Both the position numbers and the translations under genes were made by a program. This document shows, one piece after another, positions 34,393 to 46,768 of a stretch of 49,491 nt of DNA (position 1 is its first letter; each line of letters begins with the position of its first letter). The stretch is from Oscillospiraceae bacterium (GTDB lineage Bacteria; Bacillota; Clostridia; Monoglobales; Monoglobaceae): NCBI GenBank assembly GCA_015068655.1, contig SVKC01000010.1, positions 1-49,491 of the forward strand, in the 5' to 3' direction. The notes beneath the pieces are model-generated. The model did not search any database and was not told where the DNA came from. It saw only the letters and a program-made list of their open reading frames with translations.

Positions 34393-34434
34393 GGGCTGTT
34401 TAAAAACGATGTTTTTAAACAGCCCACTCTTTTT
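34393..34434 (+). terminator. Rho-independent terminator of the pyrimidine operon
   Basis: A perfect 15-bp stem (34393-34407 with 34411-34425), a 3-nt loop and a nearby T5 run lie between pyrI and the convergent TIR gene. It may also act weakly on the opposite strand. Confidence 0.9.
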
Positions 34435-34452
34435 GATAATATATATTTCAAC

Positions 34453-36258
34453 TTATGCTTCGTTGAATTTTTTCTGAATTTGGTCAACAATTTCCTTAAT
34501 TGCTTCAGGCTTTGAACTAAACAAATTCAGCTTCTTATATGGTTTTAGCATAAATCTCCAGTTTGAATAATCTTTGAATAAATCAAAATCTTCAATTTGA
34601 ACTGGTATAACCATCTTTCTGCATGTTTTTGCCTCTTCAACTTCAGTTATAACTTCAAGTGACATAACAGAACGGGTAGAAACAAATACCAGAACAATAG
34701 CACATTCCTTAATCGCCTGCGGAATTACACTATTGTGATCCTCACCACCATCAATCCCGTCCTCGGAAAGCCAGCACCGAATACCTCGTGAATTTAGTTC
34801 TCTGACAACAAGAGAAGCACGACTGTTTCCCGATTCCATATCCTCGGTCTTCTTTGATACAAAAACATATTTTCCCTTAATGGTGGAAATTCCTTTTACC
34901 TTTTTCGCACCGCCAAACAGTTCATTCCACAATCTTTTTATGTAACTTTCGACTTTATCGTATAAAGGTCCAAGCTTTGACTCATGGATTTTCAGTTTGA
35001 CATTACTTCTGAATCTCGGATAAGCTATGAGCAAAACAACAAATACAAATATCAAGAAATTCAAAAGCCCAAAAGCCAATGAAACTAAGCCTGTTATCAA
35101 TGAAACTATTATTGATATAATTGATGTTCTTTTCTTTGGAATCGCCTTTTCAATGCTGATAGGCATTTCTATCTGTTCAAATTCATCTTCCTCTGGAGCA
35201 AAATAGTTTACAATTTTTTTGTCATATCCACTATCATAAGAAGTTTTCTCCGAACATAACCCTGAACCGGGTGTTTCCTTGTGGTAAACTTCAACGTTTT
35301 CTGCATTAAGAAGTGGAATACATACTCCCTCCTTCTGCGGATCAACAGAAACTCCATCCAATGTATACACAGCTGCTGCAAAAGTTGAATCATCTCTTTC
35401 CCCTTCTGCAACAATGTGATTATAGCTCAAAGCAACACCCTTCACCTTTGATTTTGTCAAATAATTATTGTAGTTTTCATCTCCCATAGCACATCCACTG
35501 AGATACAAATCGACATCATCGGTAGTATCGCGGTATGTCGTATGACCGGCATTATCTGCAACCACAAAAATATTCTTGTTGACCTTCTCCTTTGCGAGGT
35601 GAATTACTCCGTATTCTTTTTCATAAGTGAATTCACAGGGAGAATATCCGTTTTTCATCAAAATAAACTCACGGAACGAGCCACTGAACTCCTCAAAATT
35701 TGCCGCTTTTTCCTCTCCCCAAAATACATCTCTATCCATCACTGCACCGAAAGAATATGCAGTTAAAAAAAGTATTTCCGGATTGTCTGCAAGATAATTC
35801 TCTGACCAATAATGTATATCGTATTCACTTCTATGTTGCGCAGTTTCAGTATCAGCATAAAGAACCAAACGTTTGGTTTGATGTGGTGATAATTTCAAAT
35901 CATTCAAAGCTTTGTCAATAATATTCTCAGCTTTGAATTCATTGCTGGATTTTGTATATTTTGTAAAATTCTCTTCCAAAAACTTTTGATTTGTTTCAAT
36001 ACGAATAGGCTCATTGCTTCCCGCAATGGGATAAAGCCAAATTTCCGAATGCTCCGCAATACTTGCAGCAATAATTGATTCAATCAATATGCTTTTTACC
36101 TCATCATGTCCTGAATTATCAAAAACAATATTAATTCTCTCCGTAATTTCAGGTGCTGTATACCCTAAATCCTGCTGCGGAGGATATATCCACACCGCAC
36201 TACAGGTCAACGAAAACAACAAAATAAACAAAATTCCAAATGACAAAAACTTTTTCAT
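34453..36258 (-). CDS. Membrane protein with VWA-like ectodomain, TM segment and cytosolic TIR domain
   Basis: The 601-aa protein starts with a signal peptide or anchor (MKKFLSFGILFILLFSLTC), then a region of about 350 residues opening with RINIVFDNSGHDEVKS, a VWA-type strand with a degenerate metal site (DxS kept, following Ser lost). A strongly hydrophobic segment lies at about 378-412, then a basic linker and a TIR domain at about 462-590: KGKYVFVSKKTEDM, VVRELNSRGIRCWLSEDGI, SVIPQAIKECAIVLVFVSTR, SLEVITEVEEAKTCRKMVIP. A Glu in SLEVITE is positioned like the catalytic Glu of NAD-cleaving TIRs, which is only an inference. Start ATG 36258 follows GGGGGGAATT. Topology predicts ectodomain outside and TIR inside, like a Toll receptor. 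YhcH lies 60 nt upstream on the same strand. Confidence 0.82.
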   Translation of the reverse strand: MKKFLSFGILFILLFSLTCSAVWIYPPQQDLGYTAPEITERINIVFDNSGHDEVKSILIESIIAASIAEHSEIWLYPIAGSNEPIRIETNQKFLEENFTKYTKSSNEFKAENIIDKALNDLKLSPHQTKRLVLYADTETAQHRSEYDIHYWSENYLADNPEILFLTAYSFGAVMDRDVFWGEEKAANFEEFSGSFREFILMKNGYSPCEFTYEKEYGVIHLAKEKVNKNIFVVADNAGHTTYRDTTDDVDLYLSGCAMGDENYNNYLTKSKVKGVALSYNHIVAEGERDDSTFAAAVYTLDGVSVDPQKEGVCIPLLNAENVEVYHKETPGSGLCSEKTSYDSGYDKKIVNYFAPEEDEFEQIEMPISIEKAIPKKRTSIISIIVSLITGLVSLAFGLLNFLIFVFVVLLIAYPRFRSNVKLKIHESKLGPLYDKVESYIKRLWNELFGGAKKVKGISTIKGKYVFVSKKTEDMESGNSRASLVVRELNSRGIRCWLSEDGIDGGEDHNSVIPQAIKECAIVLVFVSTRSVMSLEVITEVEEAKTCRKMVIPVQIEDFDLFKDYSNWRFMLKPYKKLNLFSSKPEAIKEIVDQIQKKFNEA

Positions 36259-36318
36259 AATTCCCCCCGTACCGCAAAACATTAAAATAATAATGTTTTT
36301 TCAAAGTATATTAAAATA

Positions 36319-38774: not shown

Positions 38775-38861
38775 GGAGAGGTGTCCGAGTGGTTTAAGGA
38801 GCTAGTCTTGAAAACTAGTGATGCGAAAGCACCCAGAGTTCGAATCTCTGCCTCTCCGCCA
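38775..38861 (+). tRNA. tRNA-Ser (anticodon UGA)
   Basis: The 7-bp acceptor stem GGAGAGG pairs with CCTCTCC, with discriminator G and an encoded CCA at 38859-38861. The anticodon loop CTTGAAA reads UGA. A long variable arm (around GATGCGAAAGCACC) and the T loop GTTCGAATC mark a class II serine tRNA. Confidence 0.97.
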
Positions 38862-38887
38862 TTTTTATATTTGTATGTTTTAAATTC

Positions 38888-38978
38888 GGAGAAGTACTCA
38901 AGAGGCCGAAGAGGCGCCCCTGCTAAGGGTGTAGGTCGTGAAAGCGGCGCGAGAGTTCAAATCTCTCCTTCTCCGCCA
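38888..38978 (+). tRNA. tRNA-Ser (anticodon GCU)
   Basis: The acceptor stem GGAGAAG pairs with CTTCTCC, discriminator G, encoded CCA at 38976-38978. The anticodon loop CTGCTAA reads GCU. The long variable arm and GTTCAAATC T loop confirm a class II serine tRNA. It lies 26 nt after the first and is probably in the same transcript. Confidence 0.97.
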
Positions 38979-39091: not shown

Positions 39092-40024
39092 TCAACTATT
39101 TTGTTTGAAATATTTTTCTATGAAGGCTTCACACTCTTCAAGGGGAATCGGTTTCGAATAATACCACCCCTGAATATAATCACAGGCAGACTGCGACACA
39201 AGTGTATTTTGATCTTCCGTTTCAACACCTTCACAGATTACCGATATATTGAGGTTATGAGCGAGCGCAATGATACCCGCAAACAAATCCTTGCCGCGCT
39301 TCGTGCTTGTTTTTAACAAAATATCACGGTCAATTTTTACAACATCAATGGAATAATCGCAAAGATTTGCAAGAGAAGTATATCCACTGCCTAAATCATC
39401 AAGGTAAATCTTAAAGCAAAGGTCTTTACATAGTCTGACGTTTCTTTTTGCCGTTTCTCTGTCTTTTTCTATGGCATCTTCTGTTATTTCTATTGCCAGC
39501 TTTGATTTGTCAAAATCATAGGCTTGTAGAATCATTTTAAGCTTGTCAATACAATCTTCTTCAGAAAGTGTTATCCTTGTAAAATTACATGATATTGAAA
39601 TATCCTTGTATTCTGTATCTCTCCATTTTTCAAGCTGACGGCAAGCACACTCAAACATATAAAAATCATGCCTACTGATTAGTCCTGCCGTTTCCATATA
39701 ACCAATATAATTCCCCGGTCCTATAATCCCTTTTTGCGGATTTTCCCATCTGGAAAGAGCTTCTGCGGAAATAATATTTTTGGTCTTGTTGTCAACAACA
39801 AACTGAAGATACATCTTGAACTCATCGTTTTTTATTCCTTCCAAAATACTGTCTGTAATTTTCTTTTCTTCTTCTGTTGTAATATCATTTTTCTTGTTAG
39901 AATCAATTTTCTCAACAGCTGCATTACGTTTTTTCATACTCCTGATTCGAAACAGTAATACAACAACAAAAGCAGATTGCACAAAAAATGCAAATATTGC
40001 TATAAACATTATTACCTTTTCCAT
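39092..40024 (-). CDS. Membrane-anchored EAL-domain c-di-GMP phosphodiesterase
   Basis: The 310-aa protein has one N-terminal transmembrane helix (about residues 4-26), a short linker and a single EAL domain (about 60-305). The expected catalytic residues appear present: EALSRW, the Asn in ISCNFTR, LAIEITED, IYLDDLGSGYTSL with the paired Asp, VVKIDRDIL with Lys, VICEGVETEDQ and the Gln in YIQGWYY. It should hydrolyse c-di-GMP to pGpG. No sensory or GGDEF domain is attached. It is the last gene of the polysaccharide operon and ends at a strong terminator. Confidence 0.9.
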   Translation of the reverse strand: MEKVIMFIAIFAFFVQSAFVVVLLFRIRSMKKRNAAVEKIDSNKKNDITTEEEKKITDSILEGIKNDEFKMYLQFVVDNKTKNIISAEALSRWENPQKGIIGPGNYIGYMETAGLISRHDFYMFECACRQLEKWRDTEYKDISISCNFTRITLSEEDCIDKLKMILQAYDFDKSKLAIEITEDAIEKDRETAKRNVRLCKDLCFKIYLDDLGSGYTSLANLCDYSIDVVKIDRDILLKTSTKRGKDLFAGIIALAHNLNISVICEGVETEDQNTLVSQSACDYIQGWYYSKPIPLEECEAFIEKYFKQNS

Positions 40025-40048
40025 TTTCTGTACACCCCCCTTACAATA

Positions 40049-40996
40049 TTATTTATATTGTTCAACTGCTATAAAATTTTTCTTTGCACTCTTTACGGTC
40101 GAAGAAATTATGTACTTTGGTCTGCCTTTAATTTCTTCATAAATACGCGCAATATAGTATCCAATTATTCCAAGGCTTATCATAATTATACTCCCTATAA
40201 AGATAGTTATAATTATTACCGTTGTCATGCCTTCAAGAGCTCGTCCGATTATTTTGTCAATAAGCGCCCAAACACTGAATATAACCGATATAACAAGCAT
40301 CACAAAACCTAAAGCTGTTACAATCTGCATTGGAGCGGTAGAATATGATGAAATGTTTGAAATTGCATACTTCACAAGTCCCCGGGTTGACCATTTGGAT
40401 TCGCCATCTACGCGCATATTGACATCATATTCAACTGTTGCTTTCTTGTATCCTACCCAATAAGAGATTGCCCTGAAAAAACCTCTTTCCGGCATATTGT
40501 TAATCACATCAACAACTTTTCTGTCCAAAAGCTTGAAATCCGACGAATTTGCCATATCGAAACCCGCCATACGACTGATAACCGAATAAAAAATCTTTGC
40601 GCCAATGCTGTGCATTTTTTTTTCCTGTCCGCGCTCTTTTTTTATTCCTTCAACAATCTCATATCCCTGTTCCCACAAGCGATACATCTCAACTATCTTT
40701 TCGGGCGGATGCTGAAGGTCACAGTCAATAACAACAGCACAATCACCGTTTGCTGCGGCTAAACCCGCAGATATAGCTGATTCTTTTCCAAAATTTCTTG
40801 AAAAGTTCAGTCCAATTATATTTTCTTTCTCTCCGGAAAGTTCGGTTATCATTTTGTAAGTCTGATCCTGTGAGCCATCATTTACAAAAATAAACTCACT
40901 GTCAATATTATTTTCTGCAAGCAAAGAGTGTATAGCGATATATGCACGTCTTATACACTTCTCTTCATTATAGGCAGGAATGATTACTGATAACAT
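40049..40996 (-). CDS. GT2 polyprenyl-phosphate glycosyltransferase (GtrB/DPM1-like)
   Basis: The 315-aa protein has a GT-A catalytic domain, MLSVIIPAYNEEKCIRRAY, IFVNDGSQDQTYKMI and VVIDCDLQHPPEKIVEM (the DxD-like Asp cluster), followed by two C-terminal transmembrane helices (about 230-255 and 265-290). That is typical of GtrB and bactoprenol-phosphate glucosyl- or mannosyltransferases, which load a sugar onto undecaprenyl phosphate at the inner membrane face. It lies between the two EAL genes and probably supplies or modifies a surface glycan. Confidence 0.92.
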   Translation of the reverse strand: MLSVIIPAYNEEKCIRRAYIAIHSLLAENNIDSEFIFVNDGSQDQTYKMITELSGEKENIIGLNFSRNFGKESAISAGLAAANGDCAVVIDCDLQHPPEKIVEMYRLWEQGYEIVEGIKKERGQEKKMHSIGAKIFYSVISRMAGFDMANSSDFKLLDRKVVDVINNMPERGFFRAISYWVGYKKATVEYDVNMRVDGESKWSTRGLVKYAISNISSYSTAPMQIVTALGFVMLVISVIFSVWALIDKIIGRALEGMTTVIIITIFIGSIIMISLGIIGYYIARIYEEIKGRPKYIISSTVKSAKKNFIAVEQYK

Positions 40997-41007
40997 AAAA
41001 AACCACC

Positions 41008-42375
41008 TTACTGTTTCTCAAATAATGTTTCAAGCTTTGCAACAGGCATTGGACGATAAAAATAATATCCTTGAAGCATATCACAACCTGCTTCCACAAC
41101 CGTGTTTTTGTGTTCTTCTGTTTCTATCCCCTCACATAAGGTCTTGAACCCTAAGTCATGTGCGGTTCGGATAATATTTTTCAAAATCAAAAATCCCGTT
41201 TGGTTAATTGCATTTTGTGTTATTGCTTTATCAATTTTCACAATGCTTATATCAAAATCCGTCAAATCTCCAAAACTGGTATAGCCTTTGCCGAAGTCAT
41301 CCAAAAGAATCAAGATTCCCTTTTCTTTTAAACGAGTCAAATTTGATACCATTACAACTTTTTCATCTTCATTCAGACTCTTGTCCTCAAGGATTTCAAC
41401 TGCAATACACGAATAATCAATGTCATATTTTTCTATAATATTTATTATATTATCTGCCAGATTCCGGTCACAAAGAGTATATCGGGAAAAATTGATTGTG
41501 TACACATATTTAACTCGATTTTCTTTGTCGTTTGAAATCCATTTGCAATTTTTTTCAAAGATATAATAATCAAATTTCTCGTTTAATCCTACATTGTTCA
41601 CTGCCGAAAGGAAAAAGTATGGCGTCAAAACCCCCTCGGTTGGAGAATTAAGTCGAGACAGCACCTCTGCGCCCATAATCTTGTTTGTTTTTGCATCCAG
41701 AATAGGTTGATACTCAAGGAAAAATCTGTTGTTGTCAATTTCATTCCGGATATTGTTTTCGATTTTGATTTTTCTTTCAAATTCTTTCCCGTTTGAGCTA
41801 TCCCATCGGCAGTACAAAACATCCTTGTCTTCTGCTATACTGCACGCCTGTTTTGCTCTTGCAAGGGCTGTATCAAAGGAAACATCTGTTGCGCTGGTCA
41901 TATGATAACCGAAATTTGTACGAACAACATTCACCACACCATATTTCACCAATGCTTCATTGATTTCTTCAAAGCAACTGTTGAGGCATCGTTCCAGTTC
42001 ATCTGCTTCCAGATTGTTGATTGCAACAAAATTCGCTTCGCCGTAAAGAGAAATCTCGCCCCCTGCATCGAGACACAGATAGCTGAACAAAATTTTTTTT
42101 ATTTGTTCATACATTCTGACAGCCTTTGATGCCGAATACAGTCTTTTCATACCATCAAGAGATATTGAAACATATATAATTGAACGGTTTTTTCTGGAAG
42201 CTCCTGCTTTTTCAAAGTCATTTTCTATTTTCCCTATACCGCAAAAGCCTTTCTCAGCTGTTCCTTTTGCTGTTTTCACAGATTTCATCGTAAAGAACAA
42301 TCCTACAAGGCCCATTATAAGGAAAAACATTACAAGAATAGTTATAATTACATAAGGGTATTCAAAAAATTTCAT
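41008..42375 (-). CDS. Membrane protein with degenerate GGDEF and intact EAL domain
   Basis: The 455-aa protein has one N-terminal transmembrane helix (about 8-30), a GGDEF-like domain (about 60-195) whose active-site loop reads ISLYGEANFVAI instead of GGDEF, so no cyclase activity is expected, and an EAL domain (about 210-450). The EAL residues look complete: AEVLSRL, the Asn in YTINFSRYTL, IAVEILEDK, LLDDFGKGYTSF, IVKIDKAIT, LCEGIETEEH and LQGYYFY. It is likely a c-di-GMP phosphodiesterase with the GGDEF fold as a regulatory module. AGGAG precedes ATG 42375. It sits inside the glycosyltransferase operon. Confidence 0.88.
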   Translation of the reverse strand: MKFFEYPYVIITILVMFFLIMGLVGLFFTMKSVKTAKGTAEKGFCGIGKIENDFEKAGASRKNRSIIYVSISLDGMKRLYSASKAVRMYEQIKKILFSYLCLDAGGEISLYGEANFVAINNLEADELERCLNSCFEEINEALVKYGVVNVVRTNFGYHMTSATDVSFDTALARAKQACSIAEDKDVLYCRWDSSNGKEFERKIKIENNIRNEIDNNRFFLEYQPILDAKTNKIMGAEVLSRLNSPTEGVLTPYFFLSAVNNVGLNEKFDYYIFEKNCKWISNDKENRVKYVYTINFSRYTLCDRNLADNIINIIEKYDIDYSCIAVEILEDKSLNEDEKVVMVSNLTRLKEKGILILLDDFGKGYTSFGDLTDFDISIVKIDKAITQNAINQTGFLILKNIIRTAHDLGFKTLCEGIETEEHKNTVVEAGCDMLQGYYFYRPMPVAKLETLFEKQ

Positions 42376-42393
42376 TTTTCAGACTCCTGCCAT

Positions 42394-43458
42394 CTATTTT
42401 TCAAAAATAGGAAACTCCCTCGTTCCTGATGTCTGCTTGAGACCCAAATCCGACGCTACTTTCATACACTTTGCAATGTCTTTTTTCGCCGTTTGTTTTC
42501 TTCGGGTAATTTCTTTCATCAAAAAGAATGGATTAAAACTGAGCATCGCTTTCACAACATCGGTTTTTGACACACCGCATCTTTTGTATTCAGCCAAAAT
42601 TTCCAGAAGTGCATAGCTTATTGTTTTCTTATCAAAATTTTTGCCGCTCACACGCTTCAACCATTTTGCATATTCAAGGAACTTGTCTATATCAGCATTT
42701 TCTTTGAAATAGATTCCGCTGATATAAAACTCCTGCATTTTTTCATCCAATTTCTGAAGAAGGGTCCCATAATATTTCTGCTGTATTTTCAGCACTTCGG
42801 AATGTTGTCTTTCAAGAGTTGTGCTTGTAATTTGCTTGTCGTGAAGTCGATATATCAAGAGACATTCAGGAAGAATCTCTATTTTCTGCTCTCCCATCAT
42901 CATTCTCGTCCACAACTCAAGGTCTTCGGTACATGTAAGTCCGGTGTCATAATTAAACTTTTTCATTACCTCACTCTTTGCAATAACACCGGGATGAAGT
43001 ATTGGGTTTGCCACAAGAAGCATTGCACGCAACGCTTGATTGTCACAACGTCCTCCTGCCCCGCCTGACATATATACACCATTTTTCACGGTCATAAATC
43101 TGCAAGAAGATAATGCAACATCACTGTTTTCTTCCATAAACTTATATTGTTTTTCAAATCTATCGGGAAGACAGATGTCATCAGCATCCATTCTTGCTAT
43201 ATATTTCCCGCAAGAAAAAGAAATAGCCTTGTTGAGTGATGCAGGAAGCCTCAAATTAACTTCATTTGTATGAACCTTTATTCTTTCATCCCTCAGGGAA
43301 ATCCTGTCAAGTATTTCAGCTGTGGAATCTGTTGAACAATCGTTTATAACAATCAGCTCCCAATTGGTAAAAGTCTGTTTTATAACACTTTCTATTGCTT
43401 CTTCAATATATGTTTCGCCGTTATACACACTCATAATTACCGATATATCAGGCTTCAT
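42394..43458 (-). CDS. GT2 glycosyltransferase
   Basis: The 354-aa protein begins MKPDISVIMSVYNGETYIEE and has VINDCSTDSTAEIL and YIARMDADDICLPDRFEKQ (DxD motif), a standard GT-A nucleotide-sugar transferase. No transmembrane helix is evident, so it is probably a cytosolic or peripheral enzyme adding one sugar to the repeat unit. I chose ATG 43458 after GGGTGAAAT, 8 nt after the previous stop; the longer frame overlaps the upstream gene. Donor and linkage cannot be read from sequence. Confidence 0.9.
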   Translation of the reverse strand: MKPDISVIMSVYNGETYIEEAIESVIKQTFTNWELIVINDCSTDSTAEILDRISLRDERIKVHTNEVNLRLPASLNKAISFSCGKYIARMDADDICLPDRFEKQYKFMEENSDVALSSCRFMTVKNGVYMSGGAGGRCDNQALRAMLLVANPILHPGVIAKSEVMKKFNYDTGLTCTEDLELWTRMMMGEQKIEILPECLLIYRLHDKQITSTTLERQHSEVLKIQQKYYGTLLQKLDEKMQEFYISGIYFKENADIDKFLEYAKWLKRVSGKNFDKKTISYALLEILAEYKRCGVSKTDVVKAMLSFNPFFLMKEITRRKQTAKKDIAKCMKVASDLGLKQTSGTREFPIFEK

Positions 43459-43466
43459 AAGATATT

Positions 43467-44486
43467 TCACCCTTTCTTCAGAACTCTTTTGATGTTTTTG
43501 CATAAATTAAGGAAATAAAATGCGACTTTGTAACATTTCTTCTTCATAAGGAATATTGTTATTCTGCTTTTCAAAGAAATGTTTTCGAACTCTGCGCACG
43601 AAATTCTTTTGCTGTGTATCGACTTTTCAATATTTTCCTTAATTGTTCTTATACTTTTGAAGTGATTTCCTTCCGCTGCCGATGCTAGTATTGCAAAGCA
43701 CATAAAGCAGGAATAACGGCAAAGCTGTTCATCGAAATCAATCAAATTTTTCATATCTGTTTTCCTTATTTCATTGATAACATCTTCTATAAGAAAAATC
43801 TGCTTTGCGTTAAACTCCTTTGACAAGGAATCATCTCTCACAGTGTATAAATATGCCTCTTTTTTGCTTATGTAAACGCTTTTGGCGCTTAGGTAACAAG
43901 GAACAACGCAGCATAAATCTTCGCCCAAGGATATTTTTTCACTTACTCCCAATTGATGTGGGGTCAGCAGTTCTCTTTTTACTGCCTTTCCGGACAAATA
44001 ATATGAAATATGATTCATATTTTTATCCATCAAAAGTCTGGGATAAATATAGTTTTCAATATCCTTTCCGGCATAAAGTCCTTCATCAAGTCCGTCAGTT
44101 GTAACACTGACTGTATGCCCATTTTTGACCCATCTGTATGAGAAAGATACAATTTCGCAGCTTGTATCCTTTATTATCTTGTGTGCACATTCCAGAGTGT
44201 CATTTTCGATTAGATCGTCCGAATCAAGGTTAAACACATATTCGCCCACAGCTTCCCTTATTCCTGCTCTGCGAGCACTTGCAAGGCCGCCGTTTGATTT
44301 GTGAACTACCTTTATGCGTTCATCCTTTTCTTTGTAATTTTCACAAATTTCAGGACACCTGTCAGGAGAACCGTCATCAACCAAAATAAGCTCAAAATCA
44401 GAAAATGTCTGATTCAAAACACTCTCTATGCAATTGGGCAAATATTTCTCAACCTTGTATACAGGTACTATTACAGAAAAAAACAT
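43467..44486 (-). CDS. GT2 glycosyltransferase
   Basis: This protein of about 339 aa has the GT-A motifs FFSVIVPVYKVEKYLPNCIE, LVDDGSPDRCPEICENY and VFNLDSDDLIENDTLE (DxD). The C-terminal half is basic and less conserved. ATG 44486 follows AGGTGAAGG; a GTG at 44495 directly after the upstream stop is an in-frame alternative. It belongs to a tandem set of three cytosolic GT2 enzymes and is not a recent duplicate of either by eye. Confidence 0.88.
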   Translation of the reverse strand: MFFSVIVPVYKVEKYLPNCIESVLNQTFSDFELILVDDGSPDRCPEICENYKEKDERIKVVHKSNGGLASARRAGIREAVGEYVFNLDSDDLIENDTLECAHKIIKDTSCEIVSFSYRWVKNGHTVSVTTDGLDEGLYAGKDIENYIYPRLLMDKNMNHISYYLSGKAVKRELLTPHQLGVSEKISLGEDLCCVVPCYLSAKSVYISKKEAYLYTVRDDSLSKEFNAKQIFLIEDVINEIRKTDMKNLIDFDEQLCRYSCFMCFAILASAAEGNHFKSIRTIKENIEKSIHSKRISCAEFENISLKSRITIFLMKKKCYKVAFYFLNLCKNIKRVLKKG

Positions 44487-44495
44487 ATCCTTCAC

Positions 44496-45554
44496 CTATT
44501 TGGCTCTTAATCCTACAAGTACTTTCAACAGAAAGTACAATCTATATTTCATCCCGTACGCAAACACCCTTTGCTTGAACGGCAGCTTGCTTATGGGATA
44601 TGATTTCAGGGTTTTGACTGACACGCTGTGGGTGCACACCGCCTTCAATCTTTGCTTTAAGTCACTATATTTTATATTGTTATCTTTGGCATACATTATC
44701 TCTTGAGAGCACACCACTCTGCACATTGCCTGCCAGAATCTTTCAATATAAATCTGATATTCTTCATTTTTTATATCCTTTTTAAATCTTTTTTCAACCT
44801 CACCTACAAAAATAAGACTTTTTTCAAATCTGTCTTTCTTGTATGATTTTGAAATTGAATCCTCATTTCTGCAGTAATTATAAAATGCTTCATTGATTCC
44901 TGTCGCCTTACTTATGCACGATATGTAATCTATCATAAAGAGTGCATCCTCTGAAAGTATCTCGCGTTCAGATTGGAAAGAAATTTTATTTTTCTTTATT
45001 ATTTCCGTTTTAAACAGATTCTTCCAGATACTCATTCCATATTTGCTGTCATCGCAATCATCCGGCGTTGCTCCCACAATACCCATCCGAAGTTTTTTCA
45101 GGCTTTCTTCATTATCAAAATGGGTATCCTTGTCAAAATAAGTTTTTCGGTCGCATTCTCCCTCATGGCTGAACATATTTCCGTCTACAAACAGAACTCC
45201 TGACATCACAAGGTCAGAACCATATTTCTTTGCCGTCTCGTATAGGGTTTCAAACATATTTTTTTCTACAAAATCGTCCGAATCCAAAAAACCGATATAT
45301 TCACCCGTTACGACTTCAAGTGCCGCATTTCGTGCATAACCCGCTCCCTCGTTCACCTTGTGAATAACCTTTATGCGAGAGTCGACCAGCGCCAGTTTGT
45401 TGCATATTTCAAGGGATGAGTCTGTTGATGAATCATCCACAAGGATTATCTCAATGTCTTCAAGGGTCTGGTTTTTTAAAGAGTTTATACCTCTTTCAAG
45501 ATATTTCTCCGCATTATATACGGGAACGATAATGCTTACTTTGGGCTGTGACAC
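44496..45554 (-). CDS. GT2 glycosyltransferase
   Basis: This protein of about 352 aa begins SQPKVSIIVPVYNAEKYLER and has LVDDSSTDSSLEICNKL and YIGFLDSDDFVEKNMFETL (DxD), so it is a GT-A family 2 transferase, probably adding a sugar to a lipid-linked repeat. I chose GTG 45554, which has AGAGGTGAG at good spacing. GTG 45563 is in the same frame but overlaps the ribosome-binding site and the end of the upstream GT4 gene. Confidence 0.88.
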   Translation of the reverse strand: MSQPKVSIIVPVYNAEKYLERGINSLKNQTLEDIEIILVDDSSTDSSLEICNKLALVDSRIKVIHKVNEGAGYARNAALEVVTGEYIGFLDSDDFVEKNMFETLYETAKKYGSDLVMSGVLFVDGNMFSHEGECDRKTYFDKDTHFDNEESLKKLRMGIVGATPDDCDDSKYGMSIWKNLFKTEIIKKNKISFQSEREILSEDALFMIDYISCISKATGINEAFYNYCRNEDSISKSYKKDRFEKSLIFVGEVEKRFKKDIKNEEYQIYIERFWQAMCRVVCSQEIMYAKDNNIKYSDLKQRLKAVCTHSVSVKTLKSYPISKLPFKQRVFAYGMKYRLYFLLKVLVGLRAK

Positions 45555-45559
45555 ACATC

Positions 45560-46768
45560 TCACCTCTTGGCTAATTTTTCGTATTCTTTCATCAAAATAT
45601 CAGTATATGTTTCTACACTCAAAATGTTATCCTTTTCCTTTTTGCAATTTTCTTTGAGTGTATTATAATAATCCTCATTTTCAATTGTTTCCCTCAATTT
45701 TTGTGCAATACCATCAGGAGTAGGCTCCTTTACAAGAGTTCCTGTGACTCCGTCTTTTACGAGTTCTGCCATACCTCCGCTGTTCATGGTAACAACCGGA
45801 ACACCCATACAGTGTGCTTCAAGTATGGAAAGAGGGCAGTTTTCATAACACACAGAAGGCAAAAGAAGAACTTTTGCATTGCCCACAAGCTTTGTCAGCT
45901 CGTCTCCGGTAAGAAATCCTGCCAGCTTGATATTTTGAATATCTTTCAGCAGCCCTTCATCCGGACCGCTTCCTGCTACTACAAAATTATATTCCGGAAG
46001 AAGTTTTGCCGCACCTGCAATATTCTCAATGCCTTTTTCCTTGGAAAGTCTTCCTACATACACAATATAGGGCTCTTCCTTTCGGCTGTTTCCTGCAAAC
46101 TTTTCTTTGTCAATAAAATTATGTATTGTTTTGGTTTTGCCTTTGTAATATTCCTTTGCCGACAAAAGCTTGTTTTCAAGGAAATTGCTCGGACAAACAA
46201 ACAAATCAACCTTTTTGTAGGTTTTGAGCCACGAATAAAACTTTGCCTCTATAACGCCTATAATGCTCTTAACCCCTGAACCGTGAATACACTTGTTTTT
46301 TATGCAATTCATATGCGAGCCTCTGACACACTTTTCGCAGGGTGTATTTTTCTCAAAATTATACAGAAGATGATTAGGGCAAATCATCTGATAGTCATGG
46401 ACGGTCTGAACAAGAGGAATTCCTTTTTTCTTTATGCCATAAATTATGGACGGCGTAAGCTGGAAGTTTATGTTGTTCATATGAACTATATCCGGCTTGA
46501 AAGCGTCTATTACCTGCATAATTTTCTTTTTTGCTTCAAAGGAATAAACTATTTTAAACGGATATAAAAACCTTGCAAGACCTTTTGAGTGGAAGTCCAT
46601 ATTTTGTGTATACAAACCCGGTGAATTTCCTACTGTATTCTTTTCATCATACATACCAAAGAACTCAACTTCGTGGCCAATCTTTTTGAGATGCTCCGCA
46701 AGATAGAGCATATAACTTTCGCTTCCTCCGCGTGGATACAGGAACTTATTTACCATCAAAATTTTCAT
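45560..46768 (-). CDS. GT4 glycosyltransferase
   Basis: The 402-aa protein has a GT-B fold. The N-terminal acceptor domain begins MKILMVNKFLYPRGGSESYM. A Cys-rich insertion (CPNHLL, CEKCVRG and CIKNKCIHG) follows, as in some family 4 enzymes that carry a structural metal. The C-terminal donor domain has YVGRLSKEKGIENIAGAA and ENCPLSILEAHCMGVPVVT with the EX7E-type pair. It probably adds a sugar to the growing repeat unit. Its start overlaps the stop of the polymerase/ligase gene by 4 nt. Confidence 0.92.
   Translation of the reverse strand: MKILMVNKFLYPRGGSESYMLYLAEHLKKIGHEVEFFGMYDEKNTVGNSPGLYTQNMDFHSKGLARFLYPFKIVYSFEAKKKIMQVIDAFKPDIVHMNNINFQLTPSIIYGIKKKGIPLVQTVHDYQMICPNHLLYNFEKNTPCEKCVRGSHMNCIKNKCIHGSGVKSIIGVIEAKFYSWLKTYKKVDLFVCPSNFLENKLLSAKEYYKGKTKTIHNFIDKEKFAGNSRKEEPYIVYVGRLSKEKGIENIAGAAKLLPEYNFVVAGSGPDEGLLKDIQNIKLAGFLTGDELTKLVGNAKVLLLPSVCYENCPLSILEAHCMGVPVVTMNSGGMAELVKDGVTGTLVKEPTPDGIAQKLRETIENEDYYNTLKENCKKEKDNILSVETYTDILMKEYEKLAKR

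Follow-up and report, generated by a model that had tools for sequence, protein, structure and literature searches.

The window examined here is a 49,491-nucleotide stretch of DNA from an Oscillospiraceae bacterium. A single open reading frame on its reverse strand, at positions 34453 to 36258, encodes a protein of 601 amino acids (ATG at 36258, stop codon at 34453) that comprises, in order, a signal peptide, a VWA domain, a second ectodomain part, a transmembrane (TM) helix, a juxtamembrane region, and a TIR domain, several of these parts being predicted, as described below. One full-length homologue of identical layout and 49% identity was found in another Clostridia order (G170:C36; contig SVKB01000031.1, Oscillospiraceae bacterium isolate SIG450). 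Because a Shine-Dalgarno-like GGGGGG, the likely ribosome-binding site (36263 to 36268, reverse strand), lies four bases 5' of ATG 36258 and the start of the homologue aligns with this codon, it was taken as the start, in agreement with the location and start codon given in a preliminary description of the locus. The eight extra residues of a longer frame of 609 amino acids are without support.

The TIR gene is convergent with pyrI, and a bidirectional terminator with a 15-bp perfect stem and a T tract on each strand separates the two (34393 to 34425). In four genomes of the same genus (G004, G005, G001, and G008), pyrI, yhcH, and an S-layer-homology (SLH) gene adjoin without the receptor gene, and in G004 the spacer at the receptor-less site consists of a single short terminator. 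Since the pyrI-yhcH-SLH locus is conserved without it, the receptor gene is a stand-alone accessory gene, either gained here or lost in the other genomes of the genus; its site carries no clear repeat or mobile-element mark. The corresponding empty-site comparison at the locus of the homologue returned only distant PHP matches. Housekeeping or surface genes surround both copies: pyrimidine, YhcH, S-layer, EAL, and glycosyltransferase genes in the window, and amidohydrolase, PHP-like, ECF transporter, and pantothenate kinase genes beside the homologue. An amino-sugar link between the two settings (YhcH here, an amidohydrolase/NagA-like protein near the homologue) was considered and dropped, as YhcH belongs to the receptor-less locus too. 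Elsewhere in the window, two adjacent tRNA-Ser genes (TGA and GCT; 38775 to 38978) stand beside the SLH gene, and two EAL-domain proteins are interleaved with glycosyltransferase genes at 39092 to 46768, an arrangement that suggests c-di-GMP turnover near surface polysaccharide genes.

Next, the membrane layout of the protein was examined. By hydropathy, the only membrane-type segments, a TIR-internal strand aside, are amino acids 4 to 22 and 379 to 413. The position of the first segment and the small residues after it point to a signal peptide (amino acids 1 to 23; 36190 to 36258, reverse strand, as are all features of the gene given below), with probable cleavage near TCSA|V and, in the homologue, SGA|L at about the equal position. 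An ectodomain of ∼355 residues separates the signal peptide from the TM helix and ends in a variable stalk (amino acids 351 to 378; 35125 to 35208). The TM helix (amino acids 379 to 412; 35023 to 35124) is predicted from hydropathy and from a full-length AlphaFold2 model, in which residues 380 to 412 are drawn with low confidence as one helix; this model was built on two sequences, has a pLDDT of 41, and is too poor to judge for residues 135 to 379. The model and comparison with the homologue place basic juxtamembrane helices after the TM helix (amino acids 413 to 461; 34876 to 35022), followed by the TIR domain (amino acids 462 to 601; 34456 to 34875). The order of signal peptide, ectodomain, one TM segment, and TIR domain noted in the preliminary description is therefore borne out by hydropathy, the low-confidence AlphaFold2 helix, and the conserved homologue.

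The side of the membrane on which the TIR domain lies was considered with some care. In both proteins the flank after the TM helix is basic, with five Lys/Arg residues against one or two Asp/Glu residues; the ectodomain-side flank also carries four Lys/Arg residues, which makes the positive-inside rule a weak argument here. The hydrophobic stretch, at about 35 to 40 residues, is long for a single helix and might cross the membrane twice as a hairpin, which would leave the TIR domain outside the cell as a surface or adhesin-like module. The length of the stretch and the Lys/Arg residues on both of its flanks would fit a hairpin, but the model shows one continuous helix, the stretch of the window protein has no internal charged turn, and a TIR domain outside the cell would be without an NAD+ supply, and we consider this arrangement very improbable. 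One helix with a TIR domain that is predicted to be cytosolic is the likelier topology.

To characterize the ectodomain, residues 34 to 205 were modeled alone (pTM, 0.65; pLDDT, 61). A Foldseek search with this model listed almost exclusively VWA/I domains (Ku, Rpn10, integrin I, VWF A3, and CLCA1), and nearly all of the rows listed by VIA-align were likewise VWA/I domains (best Z score, 11.3 over 126 residues at 3.4 Å). Domains of CMG2/TEM8-type receptors and of apicomplexan MIC2/TRAP were among the fold matches. Those proteins combine an exported VWA/I domain, a membrane pass, and a cytosolic tail; unlike the window protein, they are eukaryotic and lack a TIR domain, and their sequences are unrelated to it. 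Searches of the ectodomain against Pfam gave no family up to an E value of 10 and no leucine-rich repeat (LRR), a PDB sequence search with the ectodomain profile gave no match, and hhalign against a VWA alignment from related genomes scored no better than column shuffles. Because the profile-profile comparison did no better than shuffles, the assignment of a VWA/integrin-I-like domain (amino acids 39 to 205; 35644 to 36144) comes from the predicted structure and a motif, DNSGH (amino acids 47 to 51; 36106 to 36120). This motif reads DxSxH instead of the complete MIDAS DxSxS in the window protein and homologue alike, and by alignment it appears to be a degraded or altered MIDAS. The VWA-type domain with a degraded metal site put forward in the preliminary description thus agrees with the predicted fold and with the motif. 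The second ectodomain part (amino acids 206 to 350; 35209 to 35643) belongs to no known family and has no confident structure; it is 53% identical to the homologue and has conserved cysteines at positions 208, 256, and 335.

TIR_2 (PF13676; cutoff, 28 bits) matched the whole protein at an E value of 2.3e-11 (44.7 bits) and the C-terminal 145 residues alone at 1.5e-12 (48.5 bits), and the TIR part of the low-confidence model retrieved SPARTA, SARM1, and RPS4 (plant) TIR domains with Foldseek at a probability of 1.00, so that the TIR fold proposed earlier is supported by both sequence family and predicted structure. The Thoeris ThsB_TIR profile scored 12.5 bits, below its cutoff of 21.2. The earlier proposal had singled out the Glu in SLEVITE as the residue to mutate. 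The motif has two: the catalytic-type residue is the second, E539 (codon at 34642 to 34644), which aligns with the Glu of (W)xxxE, a position filled by Glu in 99% of 123 TIR domains, and which is kept in both family members; in place of the first, E535, the homologue has Gln. E535 and this Gln replace the Trp of WxxxE. The box-1 Tyr is likewise replaced, by Lys, in both members, which are the sole 2 of 113 aligned TIR domains with Lys there. All five of the nearest TIR domains retain both the Tyr and the Trp, while across the wider clade the Trp is absent in 20 of 25. In published work, this Trp is strongly conserved among cADPR-producing TIR domains and is linked mainly to cyclic products, being required for the cyclic product in AbTir (PMC11374754), and SARM1 Y568A has lowered NADase activity and multimer formation (PMC8266388). 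By analogy, a noncyclic product would be expected if the window TIR domain is active. The established NADase TIR proteins (AbTir, SARM1, and SPARTA TIR-APAZ) share the TIR fold and the conserved Glu with the window protein but are soluble, and the window protein has lost the WxxxE Trp and the box-1 Tyr. Because both residues are lost though E539 is kept, NADase activity is unproven; the coupling to NAD cleavage suggested earlier keeps its conserved Glu and has these two replacements against it.

Identity to the homologue was compared part by part and was 48% in the VWA domain, 53% in the second ectodomain part, and 54% in the TIR domain against 25% in the stalk and 37% in the TM helix, a pattern that fits folded domains joined by a spacer. 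That a full-length homologue shares the architecture indicates that the fusion is conserved, as chance does not give such a match. No further members were found in 40 relatives or in 391 class, 51 order, and 398 phylum genomes (overlapping sets), and an ectodomain profile run against order, phylum, and class genomes recovered only the two known members; weak additional matches proved to be signal peptides or ParB-like, carboxypeptidase-like, or solute-binding proteins and were rejected. The phages, viral contigs, and plasmids searched held no relatives. Scans of genome contigs, which need exact short peptides and so have limited sensitivity, gave no match with the single protein and only the known homologue with a two-row alignment. 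The same architecture, which the preliminary description had proposed to seek in other genomes, was thus found once and is otherwise rare.

We also surveyed the TIR proteins of the class. A TIR_2 search of 245 class genomes gave matches in 80, and 130 distinct TIR proteins, drawn from those loci and from earlier ones, were classified by hydropathy and by where in the protein the TIR domain lies; the sample leans to long frames and includes some near-duplicates, and its TM calls come from hydropathy only. An N-terminal TIR domain followed by a TM segment was present in 46 of the 130, and ten more had a middle TIR domain and a TM segment. A C-terminal TIR domain after the TM segment was confined to the window protein and its homologue. 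In the N-terminal-TIR examples examined, the parts beyond the TM segment were beta-propeller, DUF6273, trypsin-like, or TPR domains. Membrane-tethered TIR domains are therefore common in the class and only the order is unusual here; the earlier remark that most bacterial TIR proteins are soluble is only partly right here and is unsafe in this class. In a FastTree tree, both members fell inside a clade of mainly N-terminal TIR domains (support, 0.94 to 0.95). Given this nesting, the Toll-like order seems to have arisen by local rearrangement within bacteria and is no evidence of kinship with animal receptors.

Several other TIR proteins came to light. The genome of the window has three besides the one described here, including an unusual-looking fusion of an N-terminal TIR domain to an N6_N4 DNA methylase (L002:1477-3156, G000:C41; PF01555, E value of 1.7e-9) and a 1,110-residue TIR-TM-beta-propeller-like protein of a type frequent in the class (L073:3371-6703, G000:C43). 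A TIR-TM protein with a terminal trypsin-like peptidase domain was found at L016:1453-3282 (PF13365, E value of 4e-22), and TIR-TM proteins of ∼1,000 residues (L082, L090, L099, and similar loci) recur across Clostridia families, that of L099 with WD40/beta-propeller repeats.

Comparison with described systems helps to place the protein. Metazoan Toll-like and IL-1 receptors are single-span receptors (PMC7075850), and the window protein shares with them the order of signal peptide, ectodomain, one TM segment, and TIR domain, the last predicted to be cytosolic here. It differs in having a VWA ectodomain and no LRR or Ig match, and its TIR domain is a bacterial-type TIR_2 that groups with Clostridia TIR domains; the likeness is one of layout, not of membership. 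The TIR-TM-beta-propeller, -DUF6273, -trypsin, and -TPR proteins of Clostridia also have a membrane helix that joins the TIR domain to a part predicted to lie across the membrane, and the TIR clade is partly shared, but unlike the window protein they have an N-terminal TIR domain, no signal peptide, and other outside domains. The nearest published vWA-TIR setting found is that of the MoxR-vWA ternary conflict systems, in which a vWA domain precedes effector domains, TIR among them, and acts together with a MoxR ATPase and with VMAP or iSTAND genes, some iSTAND-type vWA proteins having an N-terminal TM segment (Kaur et al. 2020, PMC7159879). The vWA domain of the window protein, in contrast, would be exported; no MoxR gene lies beside either copy and no AAA_3 match exceeded the cutoff in the genome, which is 82% complete, so membership in such a system was ruled out. 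In a literature search, limited in extent and thus weak evidence, no published bacterial protein was found to have this layout.

What the protein does was then weighed. We give about an even chance to a single-gene, single-pass envelope sensor that signals by TIR clustering. The exported VWA domain and second ectodomain part would bind something in the cell envelope or beyond it, whether a protein, a glycan, or a particle; ligand binding would cluster the receptor and bring the cytosolic TIR domains together; and the assembled TIR domains would either cleave NAD+ to noncyclic ADP-ribose through E539 or serve as an assembly platform. The fuller account, advanced tentatively and at somewhat less than an even chance, is of a bacterial receptor that reached a Toll-like layout independently, in which an exported I-domain-like VWA senses a ligand outside the cell and thereby switches, across one helix, the TIR domain in the cytosol, all encoded by a stand-alone gene. 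The receptor might instead be real and its TIR domain catalytically dead, serving only as an interaction module for the recruitment of a partner, which could be one of the other TIR proteins that the genome encodes, much as TLR signaling proceeds in animals. Loss of the box-1 Tyr and the WxxxE Trp where the five nearest TIR domains keep both, the effect of SARM1 Y568A, and the three other TIR proteins in the genome speak for such a module; set against them are the retention of E539 in both members, the frequent absence of the Trp in the wider clade, and its link mainly to cyclic products, and we regard a dead TIR domain as rather doubtful.

An anti-phage receptor would sense adsorption or envelope damage at the surface and, before the genome has entered or while it is entering, trigger the loss of NAD+ and the arrest of growth. 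TIR domains are common anti-phage effectors (e.g., PMC12578639), and the gene is accessory and missing from sister genomes. Genomic context nevertheless gives no support to the anti-phage role raised earlier, as both loci have housekeeping or surface neighbors with no defense genes or defense island beside either copy, PADLOC models match weakly and in the TIR part only, and no phage or plasmid relatives were found; such a role appears improbable. VWA domains are also common adhesion modules, and a sensor of adhesion or envelope state unrelated to immunity might bind a surface protein or glycan through the VWA domain and report envelope state by TIR clustering. The gene adjoins those for the S-layer-homology protein and YhcH, with surface glycosyltransferases near, but this adjacency is uninformative because the yhcH-SLH pair is conserved in receptor-less genomes, and we think that reading unlikely.

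The gene described here is rare but real and has the Toll-receptor order, with a predicted I-domain-like VWA replacing the leucine-rich repeats. Within the class, membrane-tethered TIR domains are common in the opposite order, and bacterial TIR signaling has been studied mostly as an intracellular response. If it is true that one gene joins an I-domain-like sensor on the outside to a TIR domain on the inside, the protein would offer a compact test of bacterial TIR proteins as true transmembrane receptors, and it could be used to ask whether clustering across the membrane suffices to switch a TIR domain on.
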